Source of the DNA: an uncultured Gammaproteobacteria bacterium
GTDB taxonomy: Bacteria > Pseudomonadota > Gammaproteobacteria > Pseudomonadales > Litorivicinaceae
Length of the DNA: 38,329 bases
NCBI GenBank assembly: GCA_913042205.1
Contig: CAJWIY010000016.1
Span: forward strand, 1-38,329
Direction: 5' to 3'
A model generated the notes under the pieces. It searched no databases. It was not told the origin of the DNA and saw only the letters and a list, made by a program, of their open reading frames with translations. A program made the position numbers and the translations under genes. Shown here piece after piece: positions 30,756 through 35,950 of the stretch. Numbering within the stretch: the first letter of the stretch is position 1; every line of letters starts with the position of its first letter.

Positions 30756-31517
30756 TTGATTAGAAAAACAATAAAACTTTTTGTTGTATCTTGGATCGGC
30801 TCTTTTCTGATTACTCCGACTACTGCGCTTGCGCTTAGTTTGTCGCACGAAGAGATTGTTCCTGTCGATTTGGTGCAATACATTCTGCCGAGATTCTCCC
30901 TGAAAACGCGAGTCCGTTTTGATCGGGTTGAAACCTCTGGTGATATTCACTTCTCGGCAGAAGAACCGGAAGTGGGGACTGCGGTCTTCACGCTTAAATC
31001 CGGGACAGTCATATATATCGGAACTAGTACCTCGCTGGGTGAGGATTCTGATTATATCGCTCTGGTAGACTGGCTTTTGAGTGAACCCGGACGTGCCACC
31101 ATTGCCGATTTCCGACAGGAGGGATCGCAGGTTGCTTTTCCAGTCGAGGCAGTTGAGGCTGCTACTGTCGAGGTCGTGATTGTTGGTGATCTTGAAAATG
31201 GACGTGAGCTATCAACCAATCATTGTAGGCGCTGTCATAAAGTGGATCGAGCGGACAAATACGCGGGTATAGGAAACTCGCCATCTTTTCATGCGATGCG
31301 CTCGTTTGAAGATTGGTACACTCGGTTCTCAGCGTTTTACGCCGTGTCCCCCCACAAAGCACTAATCTCTGTAGAAGGGTCTGGTATTGAAAAAGACCGA
31401 GATCTGATCACGATCGCCCCGATTGACCTCAAGATGAGCGACATCAATGATATCGTCGCGTTCGTGCACTCGTTAACGCCGCTCGATCTGGGTAAACCGA
31501 TTCAGGTTAACCCCTAG
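30756..31517 (+). CDS. Exported monoheme c-type cytochrome
   Basis: A 253-residue protein. A signal peptide ends near TALALS (about 27). Residues 30-145 form a beta-rich domain without heme motif (FDRVETSGDIHFSAEEPEVGTAVFTLKSG). The C-terminal 105 residues carry CRRCH at 157-161 and a Met181 (SFHAMRSF) that could be the distal ligand. It is probably a periplasmic electron carrier for the exported formate dehydrogenase. I chose the TTG at 30756, with ACGAGGTGG upstream, giving MIRKTIKLFVVSWIG; an ATG at 30723 would add 11 residues and lacks a ribosome binding site. The stop overlaps the convergent ferredoxin gene by four bases. Confidence 0.83.
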   Translation: MIRKTIKLFVVSWIGSFLITPTTALALSLSHEEIVPVDLVQYILPRFSLKTRVRFDRVETSGDIHFSAEEPEVGTAVFTLKSGTVIYIGTSTSLGEDSDYIALVDWLLSEPGRATIADFRQEGSQVAFPVEAVEAATVEVVIVGDLENGRELSTNHCRRCHKVDRADKYAGIGNSPSFHAMRSFEDWYTRFSAFYAVSPHKALISVEGSGIEKDRDLITIAPIDLKMSDINDIVAFVHSLTPLDLGKPIQVNP

Positions 31518-33517
31518 CTATCAAGGTAATCATCAGTGGTTCGGACACGTGGACGGTCTGGGCCCCTGAGAGGTGCATTTTCGTCATGATATTGCGCGTT
31601 GACACGACAGTCATCGCACATTTTGACGAGTCTCGTGTTGTCCGAGTCGGTATACATCCAGTGCTTACCTTCCAGCTTCTCGATGATTCGCTCAATCGTT
31701 GATTTGACCCCAAACGGGCGTCCACATTCGATGCACTCGAACGGATCTTCTCCATGCAACGATGCTTGTTCGAGTGCTTGCTTGCCAAAGCTCATTTGCG
31801 GTTTTAATACGATCGCTTGTTCCGGACAAGTATTTGCGCAAAGCCCGCACTGGATACAGGCATTTTCGACAATATTGATTTCTGGTCGGTCCGAACGATC
31901 ATTGAGTGCACCCGTAGGACACTGCGATACGCACGCAAGACAAAGAGTGCATTTATCACTATCAACCTCGATCACGCCATAGGGGTCTCCAGATTCAAGC
32001 GGGATCGAGAGAGGTGATTCACCGTCGTGATCTATAAAAGCTGCCATGACGTTTTTTGCAACTTCACGACGACCACCTAACAATGCAATTTCTTCATGTT
32101 CCAGCGGAGGCATACGAGTCCCGTAAAGGGCGGTCTCTAGGGCCTCAATATCCTCGATACTGACGATTCGGATGCGAGACAGGTCAATATCAGTCGGCAT
32201 TAACAGGCGATGGGCGAGCCCAACTTGATTTACGATGGCCGTTTCGGCTGTTCGTGGTGACTTCAGGATCAATGCCTCACTCGCGCCTGAGGCTAAGGTT
32301 GCAAGCAACTCTGCGTGGCCAATTAATTCAACGTTGTCTACCTCGTACGGAATGACGTCACTCGGAAGTCCTTTGTTGAAGCGAGCGGCCTCGGTAATGA
32401 GGCCGCGTCCGAACGTCCGATCGATAAACAGTATGCGTGGCGGTATTTCTGCGTGTTTTTCGAATGTTTGGACCAACGTTTTTAACCGGGTGACCATAAA
32501 TTCAAATGGTGGATCGTCATACACGATTGCTCCGGTGGGACACATGGAGGCACAGCCGCCACAGCCGCCACACATATCAGGATCAACGTAGACACCGTCT
32601 CCGTTAGGCCGAATCGCCTTTGCTCCACACGTGTCGATACATCGGGTACAGCCAGTCTTCTGCGATCTTGAGTGTGCGCATATCGATCCCTCATATTTCA
32701 CATACAGAGGTTTATCAAACGTGCCAACAAGAGCTTTGGCTTGGGCACCAATAAGTGACAATTTAAGCGGGTCTGCATTCGGGGCCCGGAGATAACCATC
32801 ACGGGTTGCTTCTGCTGCTAATATCGATTCGTCGGAAACAAGGTCAATAACTATGTCACACGTGGAACTGGCTTGATCTTTTGGTGTCGTAAATTGGGTT
32901 GCACCGCGGCCGGTTGCAACCAGTGTCGAAAAGTTTTCGAAGGTCACGTCAAACGCGCCTAGCCCGCCAGATATTGAGCAGATTTGCCCTACGGCTAAGT
33001 CATAACTTGCAGAGGGACTAACGCGTTTTGGTGCGGTCTGAATCACGCAGGTAACCGCGAGCTCCTGTCCGAGAGTCTCCGCAAACGGCAGCACCGACTC
33101 ATCTTTACCGATAATCAAGCATGTACCCGCCGAGGATATCTCTCGGATTTTTGTTCCAGGTCGGTCGAGCGTGGCATCGGCGAGAAGAGCCAACTGTTTT
33201 GCTTGCACCCAAGCCCCTTTCTCGTTGTCTCCTGTCCATCCCGCGCGGTCCCGGAGATCAATCAGATCTAGAGACGCTTTCAGCGACTGTTCAGATTGCA
33301 ATTCTTCAGTTAACTGCTCGAAGATCTGGGCTTGCTGTTCGCAAGCAAAAACGACCTGATCTCTCTGCGTTAGGGCTGCAACTGCAACATCAAGATCACT
33401 CCCACAGAGCTGGTCAGTGCAAATAACATCATCAAAGCCTTGAGATTTAAAGGCCTCGGGAACGTAGGTGATACTGTTGTCACAGCTGCATAGGATCAAA
33501 GTCTTATCACGTTTCAT
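31514..33517 (-). CDS. Multi-cluster 4Fe-4S ferredoxin protein (FDH-associated)
   Basis: A 667-residue iron-sulfur protein. The N-terminal part has scattered cysteines (Cys10, Cys12, Cys33, Cys38, Cys59) and resembles heterodisulfide-reductase-like electron carriers. Two ferredoxin modules follow. The first has Cys290, 293, 297 (with Cys280) and Cys316, 319, 322, 326; the second has Cys523, 526, 529, 533 and Cys554, 557, 560, 564. That is room for four [4Fe-4S] clusters. A final quartet Cys595/598 and 634/637 could bind a metal. No signal peptide or membrane segment, so it is likely cytoplasmic. I chose the ATG at 33517 (MKRDKTLILC); the frame is open to 33571. A Fur-like site lies 50 bases upstream. 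Confidence 0.88.
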   Translation of the reverse strand: MKRDKTLILCSCDNSITYVPEAFKSQGFDDVICTDQLCGSDLDVAVAALTQRDQVVFACEQQAQIFEQLTEELQSEQSLKASLDLIDLRDRAGWTGDNEKGAWVQAKQLALLADATLDRPGTKIREISSAGTCLIIGKDESVLPFAETLGQELAVTCVIQTAPKRVSPSASYDLAVGQICSISGGLGAFDVTFENFSTLVATGRGATQFTTPKDQASSTCDIVIDLVSDESILAAEATRDGYLRAPNADPLKLSLIGAQAKALVGTFDKPLYVKYEGSICAHSRSQKTGCTRCIDTCGAKAIRPNGDGVYVDPDMCGGCGGCASMCPTGAIVYDDPPFEFMVTRLKTLVQTFEKHAEIPPRILFIDRTFGRGLITEAARFNKGLPSDVIPYEVDNVELIGHAELLATLASGASEALILKSPRTAETAIVNQVGLAHRLLMPTDIDLSRIRIVSIEDIEALETALYGTRMPPLEHEEIALLGGRREVAKNVMAAFIDHDGESPLSIPLESGDPYGVIEVDSDKCTLCLACVSQCPTGALNDRSDRPEINIVENACIQCGLCANTCPEQAIVLKPQMSFGKQALEQASLHGEDPFECIECGRPFGVKSTIERIIEKLEGKHWMYTDSDNTRLVKMCDDCRVNAQYHDENAPLRGPDRPRVRTTDDYLDS

Positions 33518-33560: not shown

Positions 33561-33588
33561 CATAAATGCAAATGAATATCATTCGCAA
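33561..33588. promoter_or_regulatory. Fur-box-like palindrome, copy 1 (before DUF3305 and the ferredoxin gene)
   Basis: The near-palindrome GCAAATGAATATCATTCGC (33568-33586) has the core AATGA-N3-TCATT found in the 19-bp Fur operator. On the minus strand it lies between a possible -35 (TTGCGA) and -10 (TATGTA, 18-base spacer) of the ferredoxin gene. It also precedes DUF3305 on the plus strand. A second copy at 34943-34970 is identical at 27 of 28 bases. Confidence 0.6.
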
Positions 33589-33685
33589 GTATCTGAAATT
33601 TAACTTTTTTTTTCTGGCTTTAGCACCATAGACTACTCGAGTTAGGGACAAAAACGCTAAATAGAAGACCTTTGGAAAAAAATCT

Positions 33686-34291
33686 GTGACTCACAACAAG
33701 ACTTCGCTAGACCACTCTGACCTATTTGCAGCCCGGACAATATCGATGCCGGTGGGGATTGTCGTTGCAAAACATCCCGGCGTTACGCGGTGGGCTACCG
33801 AAATATGGAAACCATGCGGCTTAATACCGGGCGCAGAGATCGCTCATTGGGTTGAGTTACGAACCGAGGACTCCGCCACTTTGTATCACGCCAGGACAAT
33901 GGACCTAAACCTATACCGCTCCGATGTTGAAGCCTACCGAGTCGCACTTTCGATGGACGTACCATCTGCTTTTGTGATCATGGACGAGGACGAAGTGGGC
34001 GAGTCACCGGGGGGCTGGCAGGTGACAGATGTGACCTTGTCCCCGTACGAAGCACAAGATTTGTTGGACAGTGGCTTCAGCTTAGTCGAGCCCGTCCCAA
34101 TCCCACCGGTGATCGTTAGCTGGGCTCAGCAATTTGTTGATCAGCATTTTAAGGAAGAGCCGTTCAAGAAACGCAAAAGGGATCGGCTCGACATTGAGCA
34201 GGTTGATGATGGAATTGGAGACCCGCGGATTAGTCAGGTAAGCGATGTCTTTATGTCGCCCGCATCTTTACGGAATAGGAAAAAGCATTGA
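33686..34291 (+). CDS. DUF3305 family protein
   Basis: A 201-residue soluble protein with the DUF3305 signatures ISMPVGIVVAKHPGVTRWA and YHARTMDLNLYRSDVEAYRVALSMDVPSAFVIM. A C-terminal VSWAQQFVDQHFKEEPFKKRKRDR tail follows. DUF3305 and DUF3306 are paired next to formate dehydrogenase genes, and the function is unknown. The start is GTG with a weak purine stretch upstream. DUF3306 begins inside its stop (TTGA overlap). The Fur-like box 100 bases upstream may regulate it. Confidence 0.86.
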   Translation: MTHNKTSLDHSDLFAARTISMPVGIVVAKHPGVTRWATEIWKPCGLIPGAEIAHWVELRTEDSATLYHARTMDLNLYRSDVEAYRVALSMDVPSAFVIMDEDEVGESPGGWQVTDVTLSPYEAQDLLDSGFSLVEPVPIPPVIVSWAQQFVDQHFKEEPFKKRKRDRLDIEQVDDGIGDPRISQVSDVFMSPASLRNRKKH

Positions 34292-34947
34292 TCGAAGATA
34301 AGGGCTTTTTATCTCGCTGGTCGGACCGCAAGCTCAAAAACGAGACCGATGTCCCCTCGGCTGTCGAGGCAGATAGTAACGAGGAGACATTGGGCGAAGA
34401 TGAGTTTGAAGGAAAGTCTGACGATGAAATTCTATCGATCTTGGAACTGCCAGACCCTGAAAAATTAAAACTCGGTGACACAGTCGAGAAATTTATGGAT
34501 GGCCGCGTGCCTGAACGTATACGAGCGCGAGCGCTACGTGCATTTTGGAAAACAAACCCTGTGCTCGCGAATATCGATGGGCTTGATGAGTATTGCGACG
34601 ATTACACGGATGCAGCGACGGTAATTGAAAATTTACAAACAATTTATGAAGTCGGTAAAGGCTACGCAGAGCAGGCTCTCGATGCGCTAGAGTCATTGGC
34701 TGATGACGATACGTCGACCGATGATGAGTTGGGGTCAGAGATCGTTGCCCAGGTCGATACCCGCCTTGAACATGAGGAGCCTGTCGAGCTAGAAGAGACC
34801 CCCGTTGAGTCTGATGTAGCTGATCAGGAAGCCGCGCCCCAGAATCATTCGTTATTGCTGAACAATGACATTCCAGAAGAAATAGTGACGATCGCACCTC
34901 GGCCACGACGAATGCGTTTCGACGAGCCCTCAAATAGTAATTCATAA
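34288..34947 (+). CDS. DUF3306 family protein
   Basis: A 219-residue acidic protein. The N terminus FLSRWSDRKLK and the central ALRAFWKTNPVLANIDGLDEYCDDYTDA identify DUF3306. The rest is rich in Glu and Asp and looks disordered, ending in a basic APRPRRMRF. No signal or membrane segment. It is probably a partner or chaperone-like factor for DUF3305; the function is unknown. The start is TTG with AATAGGA upstream, and it overlaps the DUF3305 stop as TTGA. Its stop codon lies inside the second Fur-like repeat. Confidence 0.85.
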   Translation: MIEDKGFLSRWSDRKLKNETDVPSAVEADSNEETLGEDEFEGKSDDEILSILELPDPEKLKLGDTVEKFMDGRVPERIRARALRAFWKTNPVLANIDGLDEYCDDYTDAATVIENLQTIYEVGKGYAEQALDALESLADDDTSTDDELGSEIVAQVDTRLEHEEPVELEETPVESDVADQEAAPQNHSLLLNNDIPEEIVTIAPRPRRMRFDEPSNSNS

Positions 34948-34970
34948 ATGCAAATGAATCTCATTCGCAA
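34943..34970. promoter_or_regulatory. Fur-box-like palindrome, copy 2 (before the TorD-fdhA genes)
   Basis: GCAAATGAATCTCATTCGC (34950-34968) repeats copy 1 with one change. Similarity continues downstream to 34994, giving 44 of 52 identical bases overall, ending in a T-run. The perfect 6-1-6 palindrome AAACGTaACGTTT (34978-34990) follows directly and is not conserved in copy 1. The repeat overlaps the DUF3306 stop, so it probably serves the downstream chaperone and FDH genes. Confidence 0.6.
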
Positions 34971-35005
34971 ATGATTGAAACGTAACGTTTTTTTGTTGAA
35001 AACAC

Positions 35006-35033
35006 TTGCCTCTTTGGGTCAAAACGGTAGGAT
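35006..35033 (+). promoter_or_regulatory. Weak sigma-70-like promoter before the TorD-like gene
   Basis: TTGCCT (35006-35011) and TAGGAT (35028-35033) stand 16 bases apart, each a 4/6 match. They lie 54 bases before the start codon and just downstream of the Fur-like copy 2. The match is modest. Confidence 0.3.
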
Positions 35034-35086
35034 TGCATCTAACGAAAAAGATAACGCTCAGGAAGAGCCGCTCAGATAGGAATTGA

Positions 35087-35710
35087 GTGACAATAATGAC
35101 TGTGGAAGCGACCATAGAAATGAATACTCAGCCCGTAACGCCTGAAGATCAGGTCCGGGCAGAACTGTACTCTTTAATCGGTAATTTGTTACTCGCAGTG
35201 CCGAGCCAAACTACTCTTGATCAACTGAGCCAACTGCAGGGTGAGGACGGTGACGTTGGGTCGGTTGTCAATGCCCTCGCGCAAGTCGCTAAATCAATGA
35301 ATCCTGCCGCCGTTGAGCGTGAATTTAATATCTTGTTCATTGGAATGGGGCGTGGAGAAGTATTGCCTTATGCCAGTTATTACCTGACTGGATTTCTGCA
35401 TGAAAAACCGCTCGCTGATCTTCGCAACAGTATGCGAAAGCATGGTATTCAACGGAAAGATGGAATCCCTGAGCCAGAAGACCACCTCGGGTCATTATGT
35501 GAAATGATGGCCGGCATGATCACAGGTGGTTTTGGACAAGTGATGCCACTGCAGGCCCAGAAAGAATTTTTCAATGCGCACCTTGCCCCATGGGCGGCGC
35601 ATTGTTTCAGCGATCTCGAAAAAGCGGAAAGTGCTGTGCTTTATGCTCCAGTCGGCTCTTTGGGCCGCCTATTGATGGAGATTGAGCAAGAATCTTTCCG
35701 TATCGAGTAG
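35087..35710 (+). CDS. TorD/DmsD-family chaperone for formate dehydrogenase
   Basis: A 207-residue all-helical cytoplasmic chaperone of the TorD family. The segments RAELYSLIGNLLLAVPS, EREFNILFIGMGRGEVLPYASYYLTGFLHEKPLADLR and EPEDHLGSLCEMMAGMI are hallmarks. These proteins bind the Tat signal of molybdoenzymes and hold the apoenzyme until the cofactor is in. Its client here should be FdhA, three hundred bases downstream. The start is GTG at 35087 with AGGA six bases upstream; ATG 35096 is an alternative. It leads the plus-strand unit with the small Tat protein and FdhA. Confidence 0.92.
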   Translation: MTIMTVEATIEMNTQPVTPEDQVRAELYSLIGNLLLAVPSQTTLDQLSQLQGEDGDVGSVVNALAQVAKSMNPAAVEREFNILFIGMGRGEVLPYASYYLTGFLHEKPLADLRNSMRKHGIQRKDGIPEPEDHLGSLCEMMAGMITGGFGQVMPLQAQKEFFNAHLAPWAAHCFSDLEKAESAVLYAPVGSLGRLLMEIEQESFRIE

Positions 35711-35755
35711 GCCGAAAGGCGAAAAAAGTGTGAAAGCACAGTAAAGGAGATGTTC

Positions 35756-35950
35756 ATGAGTGAACAGAAAGTAAACCAGGCAGGGCGCCGTGGCTTTTTG
35801 AAGCTTGTTACCACTGGGTTACCGGTCGCAGCAGTGGCTGCAACAGCCGGAACACAGGCATTAGCAAGCCCGGAAAGCGAGATTCGTCAAGTGAGTGGTC
35901 TTCGTAAGAATGATCATTACAAAACCTATCTCAAGACAGCACGGTTCTAA
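35756..35950 (+). CDS. Small Tat-signal protein of formate dehydrogenase regions
   Basis: A 64-residue protein. Nearly half is a twin-arginine signal: GRRGFLKLVTTG at 12-23, then a hydrophobic stretch ending ALASPES near 39-43. The mature part is only about 25 residues and ends HYKTYLKTARF. Such small Tat proteins are typical directly before formate dehydrogenase alpha genes; the role is unknown. I chose the ATG at 35756, with AAAGGAG (35743-35749) at the right distance, over ATG 35750, which touches the ribosome binding site. Confidence 0.88.
   Translation: MSEQKVNQAGRRGFLKLVTTGLPVAAVAATAGTQALASPESEIRQVSGLRKNDHYKTYLKTARF

Follow-up and report, generated by a model that had tools for sequence, protein, structure and literature searches.

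Duplicated Fur-type operators at a formate dehydrogenase gene cluster of a gammaproteobacterium and a proposed link to iron supply

Two near-identical DNA elements flank the DUF3305 and DUF3306 genes of a formate dehydrogenase (FDH) cluster in the analysed stretch of 38,329 nucleotides, referred to below as the window. We read these elements as duplicated Fur-family operators, by which holo-Fur would activate both FDH units in an iron-dependent manner, and assign to this reading a probability of about 0.6. That they are Fur-type operators with Fur itself as the binder, whether activating or repressing, we hold to be quite probable. The elements are, judging from the genomes searched, specific to a lineage, and most of the close relatives are without them.

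Results

Gene identities were confirmed with Pfam, and the features are listed in Table 1. The 4Fe-4S protein gene (start at 33517, minus strand) and DUF3305 (start at 33686) are divergent, with element 1 in the gap between them, and element 2 begins 2 bases ahead of the DUF3306 stop codon (34945-34947), upstream of torD. The FDH alpha protein, truncated by the contig end, had TIGR01591 as its best match, at a score below its cut-off.

Table 1. Genes, repeat copies, palindromes and predicted promoter elements of the FDH region, in window coordinates.
Feature	Position	Strand	Basis or remark
667-aa protein with several 4Fe-4S domains (Fer4), first gene of the leftward unit	31514..33517	-	Pfam Fer4, Fer4_7, others
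Repeat copy 1 (element 1): putative Fur-type operator and T-tract	33561..33612	+	Between Fer4 gene and DUF3305
Palindrome 1, TGCAAATG-AATAT-CATTCGCA	33567..33587	+	
Predicted -10-like hexamer TAGACT, tentative, in a block conserved among relatives	33629..33634	+	IG1 alignment
DUF3305 gene	33686..34291	+	PF11749, E 4.3e-34
DUF3306 gene	34288..34947	+	PF11748, E 1.8e-19; middle part closer to G019 than expected
Repeat copy 2 (element 2): putative Fur-type operator and T-tract	34943..34994	+	Upstream of torD, overlaps DUF3306 stop codon
Palindrome 2, TGCAAATG-AATCT-CATTCGCA	34949..34969	+	
Predicted core promoter of the torD-fdhX-fdhA unit, TTGCCT-N16-TAGGAT	35006..35033	+	IG2 alignment
TorD/DmsD-like chaperone gene	35087..35710	+	PF02613; conserved start of relatives is ATG at 35096
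FdhX-like small Tat-signal protein of FDH regions	35750..35950	+	TIGR02811, E 3.6e-8, below its cut-off
Formate dehydrogenase alpha subunit, Cys type, cut by contig end	36022..38328	+	PF00384, PF04879, translation

An initial annotation of this DNA had described near-identical 28-base elements starting at 33561 and 34943, each with an AATGA-N3-TCATT core, as a duplicated regulatory region. The repeat search of the window recovered them as one family of direct repeats of 52 bp with 85% identity (44/52 overall, 27/28 in the best 28 bases), and the core was exact in both copies. The duplication was supported by dinucleotide shuffles of both intergenic regions (n = 2000), in which the maxima of 33/52 and 21/28 stayed far below the real repeat. 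The core alone, with one mismatch tolerated, was not more frequent in the window than expected by chance. The specific part of both elements is a longer palindrome, TGCRAATG-N5-CATTYGCA, present in each copy as TGCAAATG-N5-CATTCGCA, i.e., with arms of 8 bp, a centre of 5 bases and one arm mismatch per copy. The genome, a small one of 2.02 Mb from a gammaproteobacterium and 98% complete, was scanned as a whole by pattern searches. Matches to GCAAATGANNNTCATTNGC were the two element sites only, with none in the reversed control, and TGCRAATG-N5-CATTYGCA with one mismatch still returned nothing beyond the same two sites. Chance origin was rejected, for the repeat on the shuffles and for the palindrome on the genome search.

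A short repeat or a terminator, bound by no regulator and spread through recombination, would also give such a pair. In favour of this, a T-tract is found in both copies, folding is possible for the palindrome's minus strand (-11 kcal/mol, z -1.74) and the promoter/terminator scan gave a terminator-like match on the minus strand at 33587. However, folding of the plus strand was no better than that of shuffled sequences (z -0.27 and -0.30), on which ground an intrinsic terminator was rejected; moreover, the T-tract is 17-18 bases away from the stem, and the genome has no further copies. Together with the conserved arms and changed flanks seen in relatives, described below, this makes an inert repeat very improbable.

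Iron loci of the same genome carry sites related to the elements. With a 21-mer as a Fur-type query and up to 3 mismatches allowed, three genome sites were obtained, namely the two elements and C47:13682. The latter site ends 14 bp before the start codon of bfd, which encodes bacterioferritin-associated ferredoxin, and it follows two ferritin-like genes and adjoins a Fur-family gene. Its sequence, AATGCAAATGATTATCATT, is identical to element 1 in 18 of 19 bases and to element 2 in 17 of 19, and the box is kept in all three other genus members from which the bfd promoter was recovered. In six genus genomes the divergent fur2/DUF4856 promoter carries AATGCAAAT-C-ATTCGCATT or a closely similar sequence; these have the half-sites of the elements, set at 7-1-7 spacing. 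A strict 7-1-7 search across the genome found the bfd and fur2/DUF4856 sites plus one inside a coding region, and nothing else. In a genome of the same order, TGCAAATGAGAATGATTTGCA is located between an apparent PepSY-type gene and a TonB-dependent receptor gene, both judged by eye. A true Fur is encoded on contig C34 (NF006999, 155 bits at a cut-off of 146; E 2.6e-43 against P. aeruginosa Fur 1mzb).

The rule cited in PMC6922518 asks for at least 14/19 matches to the E. coli consensus GATAATGATAATCATTATC and for an inverted repeat with a stem of 7-12 and a loop of 5-9. The 8-bp arms and 5-base centre of both palindromes fall within the stem and loop limits, and the consensus is matched by element 1 at 14/19 and by element 2 at 13/19. 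Ten positions in the window reach 13/19 or more, and the counting of consensus matches was discarded as a non-discriminating test. The dimer centre AANNNTT, reported to be conserved in all Pseudomonas Fur boxes compared (PMC6922518), is absent on either strand from TGCAAATGAATATCATTCGCA and TGCAAATGAATCTCATTCGCA and present in the bfd site. No such palindrome was found at the four TonB-dependent receptor loci of the genome, not all of which need be iron carriers.

Weighing the bfd and fur2 matches and the presence of a true Fur against the AANNNTT, consensus and TonB-receptor negatives, we call the elements Fur-type operators; at the level of sequence matching, the assignment to Fur has good support. 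The Fur operator named in the initial annotation is in this way retained for its half-sites and its bfd and fur2 matches, but in neither element does it have the strict dimer centre. The annotation had also regarded a 28-mer occurring at FDH genes only as evidence against Fur. Taken literally that is the distribution found, but it weighs less given that the iron-mobilisation promoter of bfd repeats 17-18 of the 19 bases of the element core, and the fur2/DUF4856 promoter the half-sites.

Several side sites were recorded in this genome and in relatives. The fur2 gene of the present genome (G000:C47:12990-13702) encodes a Fur paralog of 140 aa, approximately 32% identical to the true Fur, in a neighbourhood of bfd, two ferritin-like genes and a DUF4856 gene with conserved Fur-type sites in both intergenic regions. 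Close orthologs of fur2 (81-93%) were found in five other genus members only. A tie of the element to fur2 was rejected, as the element is missing from G004, which possesses fur2 and FDH, and is present in G019, where fur2 went undetected in a genome 72% complete. In G003, TGCGAATGCATATCATTCGGA (C42:7439-7459) is positioned upstream of another, diverged Fur-family gene that has bfd and a ferritin-like gene as neighbours. An exact match to the 21-mer of element 1 occurs at G011:C4:3577-3597, approximately 100-130 bp upstream of a pseudoazurin-like gene of the plastocyanin/azurin family.

A rival reading is a regulator other than Fur, which would recognise TGCRAAT half-sites spaced by 7 bases and control FDH together with pseudoazurin, as an electron-transfer or C1 regulon. 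Such a regulator would account for the exact 21-mer in G011, for the dimer centre of the strict Fur box, which the bfd and fur2 sites keep and every FDH and pseudoazurin site has lost, and for the lack of sites around the four TonB-receptor genes. Yet the half-sites match those of the Fur-type iron sites of the genus exactly, in sequence as in orientation, and element 1 differs from the bfd box in 1 of 19 bases; we regard this explanation as unlikely. Still tentative, although less so, is the wider proposition that the lineage either rewired FDH to an iron regulator, acquiring an operator with an adjacent gene segment by recombination and copying it to the second promoter, or, more radically, has a 7-base-spaced site read by an unnamed Fur-family or other regulator linking FDH and pseudoazurin. 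In G011 the flanks of the 21-mer differ from those of element 1, which points to an operator more than to a repeat.

DUF3306 was detectable in 12 genus genomes. The element was found in the present genome, at both places, and in G019, where it stands before torD only; the 10 other DUF3306-bearing genus members had none. Nor was any similar site seen at 25 DUF3306 loci from other genera of the order; some of the loci in these two sets are cut by contig ends. The element as a general rule of FDH loci was rejected on these two sets. A scan of named genomes returned two relatives only, both gammaproteobacterial MAGs. In the element-free relatives the intergenic regions are shorter and hold similar promoter-like blocks. 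BLAST of the torD promoter region matched G019 at 82% over approximately 90 bases, with no other good FDH-locus match in the genus. In the G019 copy, 16/16 arm positions are kept and the centre reads ACTTG in place of AATCT, a pattern compatible with a protein site that argues against an inert repeat.

Identities over 34450-35050 of the window, a stretch running from DUF3306 up to the torD promoter, are patterned in a way consistent with recombination involving the G019 lineage. At the FDH locus G019 and G008 are 83% identical in fer, 89% in DUF3305 and 98% in fdhX. In the middle of DUF3306, G019 is 87% identical to the present genome versus 79% to G008. Because G019 is here nearer to the present genome than to G008, and G008 is without the element, the simplest reading would be that a segment from DUF3306 to the torD promoter, carrying the element, was exchanged between genus lineages. 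Element 1 looks like a later duplicate of element 2, because no relative, G019 included, has an element at its position. Elements 1 and 2 match the G019 copy equally well (42/52 each), and the proposed direction of copying therefore comes from the distribution.

A simple sigma-70 scan found no promoter at either FDH region, and the promoter positions given here, drawn from conservation, are tentative for this reason. For the torD unit, the TTGC and TAnnnT positions of the predicted core promoter recur in most genus members, the operator-free ones included, and the centre of element 2 would lie at approximately -81 from the predicted start near 35040. The centre of element 1 would lie at approximately -64 if ACCATAGACTAC holds the -10 (predicted start near 33641). 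Hardly any change is seen across the genus in the block ACCATAGACTAC...TTAAGGGC (33618-33690), which separates the divergent genes Fer4 and DUF3305 and may serve as a promoter in both directions or as the site of another regulator. The bfd box, in contrast to the FDH elements, covers part of the presumed -10, which is the usual position for repression.

Activation by holo-Fur is suggested because the operators are upstream of the predicted core promoters and not over them. Under the opposite sign, holo-Fur would block transcription of both the FDH unit and the Fer4/DUF3305 unit when iron is replete, and iron starvation would induce them. Most Fur sites do repress. The Fer4 start codon is only approximately 60 bp away from element 1, which separates it from any promoter in the conserved block; for the leftward Fer4 gene the site would be in the 5' leader and could serve as a roadblock. 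Furthermore, the FDH promoters are only predicted, and real ones could overlap the elements. Against repression, the core promoter block of the element-free relatives lies downstream of the element, unlike the bfd box with its overlap of the presumed -10, and induction of an Fe-S-rich enzyme under iron shortage is at odds with the usual iron-sparing logic. It is also at odds with the behaviour of FDH elsewhere, the transcripts of which drop under iron stress in marine bacteria and communities (PMC11069385) and in A. pleuropneumoniae (PMC1832192). We consider repression improbable. One observation speaks against activation as well, namely the identical 21-mer at a copper protein gene in G011, which is no obvious target of iron activation.

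Discussion

The scheme of iron-dependent activation that we infer extends from Fur binding, promoter positions and activation to the direction of duplication. Iron-loaded Fur from C34 would most likely bind both elements, and the 21-bp palindrome could accommodate two overlapping Fur dimers, with the outer half-sites TGCAAAT/ATTCGCA strong and the inner ones weak. Recombination between genus lineages would have brought element 2, along with a part of DUF3306, to the region of the torD promoter, and element 1 would be a second copy made after that. Holo-Fur would then turn on both units under sufficient iron, and the Fe-S-rich formate dehydrogenase and its maturation proteins would be made only if iron can be spared. 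As the elements are missing from most close relatives, the coupling of formate oxidation to the iron supply seems to be a recent step in this lineage.

Neither Fur boxes, nor activation by Fur from sites upstream, nor the FDH gene set is new. Among the papers searched, which covered little of the subscription literature, no report of a direct pair of Fur boxes at an FDH cluster was found. If the proposed reading is true, the lineage has its formate oxidation wired directly to iron status, and Fur would probably act as an activator, which has been reviewed as a rare mode. The regulatory gain would then be recent and brought about by recombination and duplication, and one genus would hold a paired set with and without it. 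The genus constitutes a natural experiment, in which the same FDH cluster with similar core promoter blocks is found with two, one or no operators.

Operons of the dmsD-fdhGHI type with DUF3305 and DUF3306 have been described (PMC4464133). The operon in the window shares with them DUF3305, DUF3306, a NarJ-family chaperone, a Tat peptide, the FDH alpha subunit and a 4Fe-4S protein, and differs in the Fur-type operators that flank DUF3305-DUF3306, none of which were seen at the examined loci of other genera of the order. The Fur box has been described as 7-1-7, 6-6-1-6 and 9-3-9. Compared with the gammaproteobacterial box (GATAATGATAATCATTATC), the elements share the AATGA-N3-TCATT core, the inverted heptamers and the two-dimer overlap, whereas their outer arms are TGCAAAT/ATTCGCA instead of TGATAAT/ATTATCA and the central AANNNTT is not retained. 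Pseudomonas bfd carries a Fur box and is under Fur repression, and P. pseudoalcaligenes bfr is Fur-activated with an upstream box, as proposed here (PMC6922518). In the Fur-activated norB, aniA and nuoA of N. meningitidis, ompT of V. cholerae and oorB of H. pylori, the boxes are approximately 90-130 bp upstream of the start (PMC3788343), and in the Neisseria genes and ompT the box is likewise upstream of the presumed core promoter. In our case the boxes are predicted to be at approximately -64 and -81, and the target, an iron-rich respiratory one as is Neisseria nuoA, is a formate dehydrogenase.
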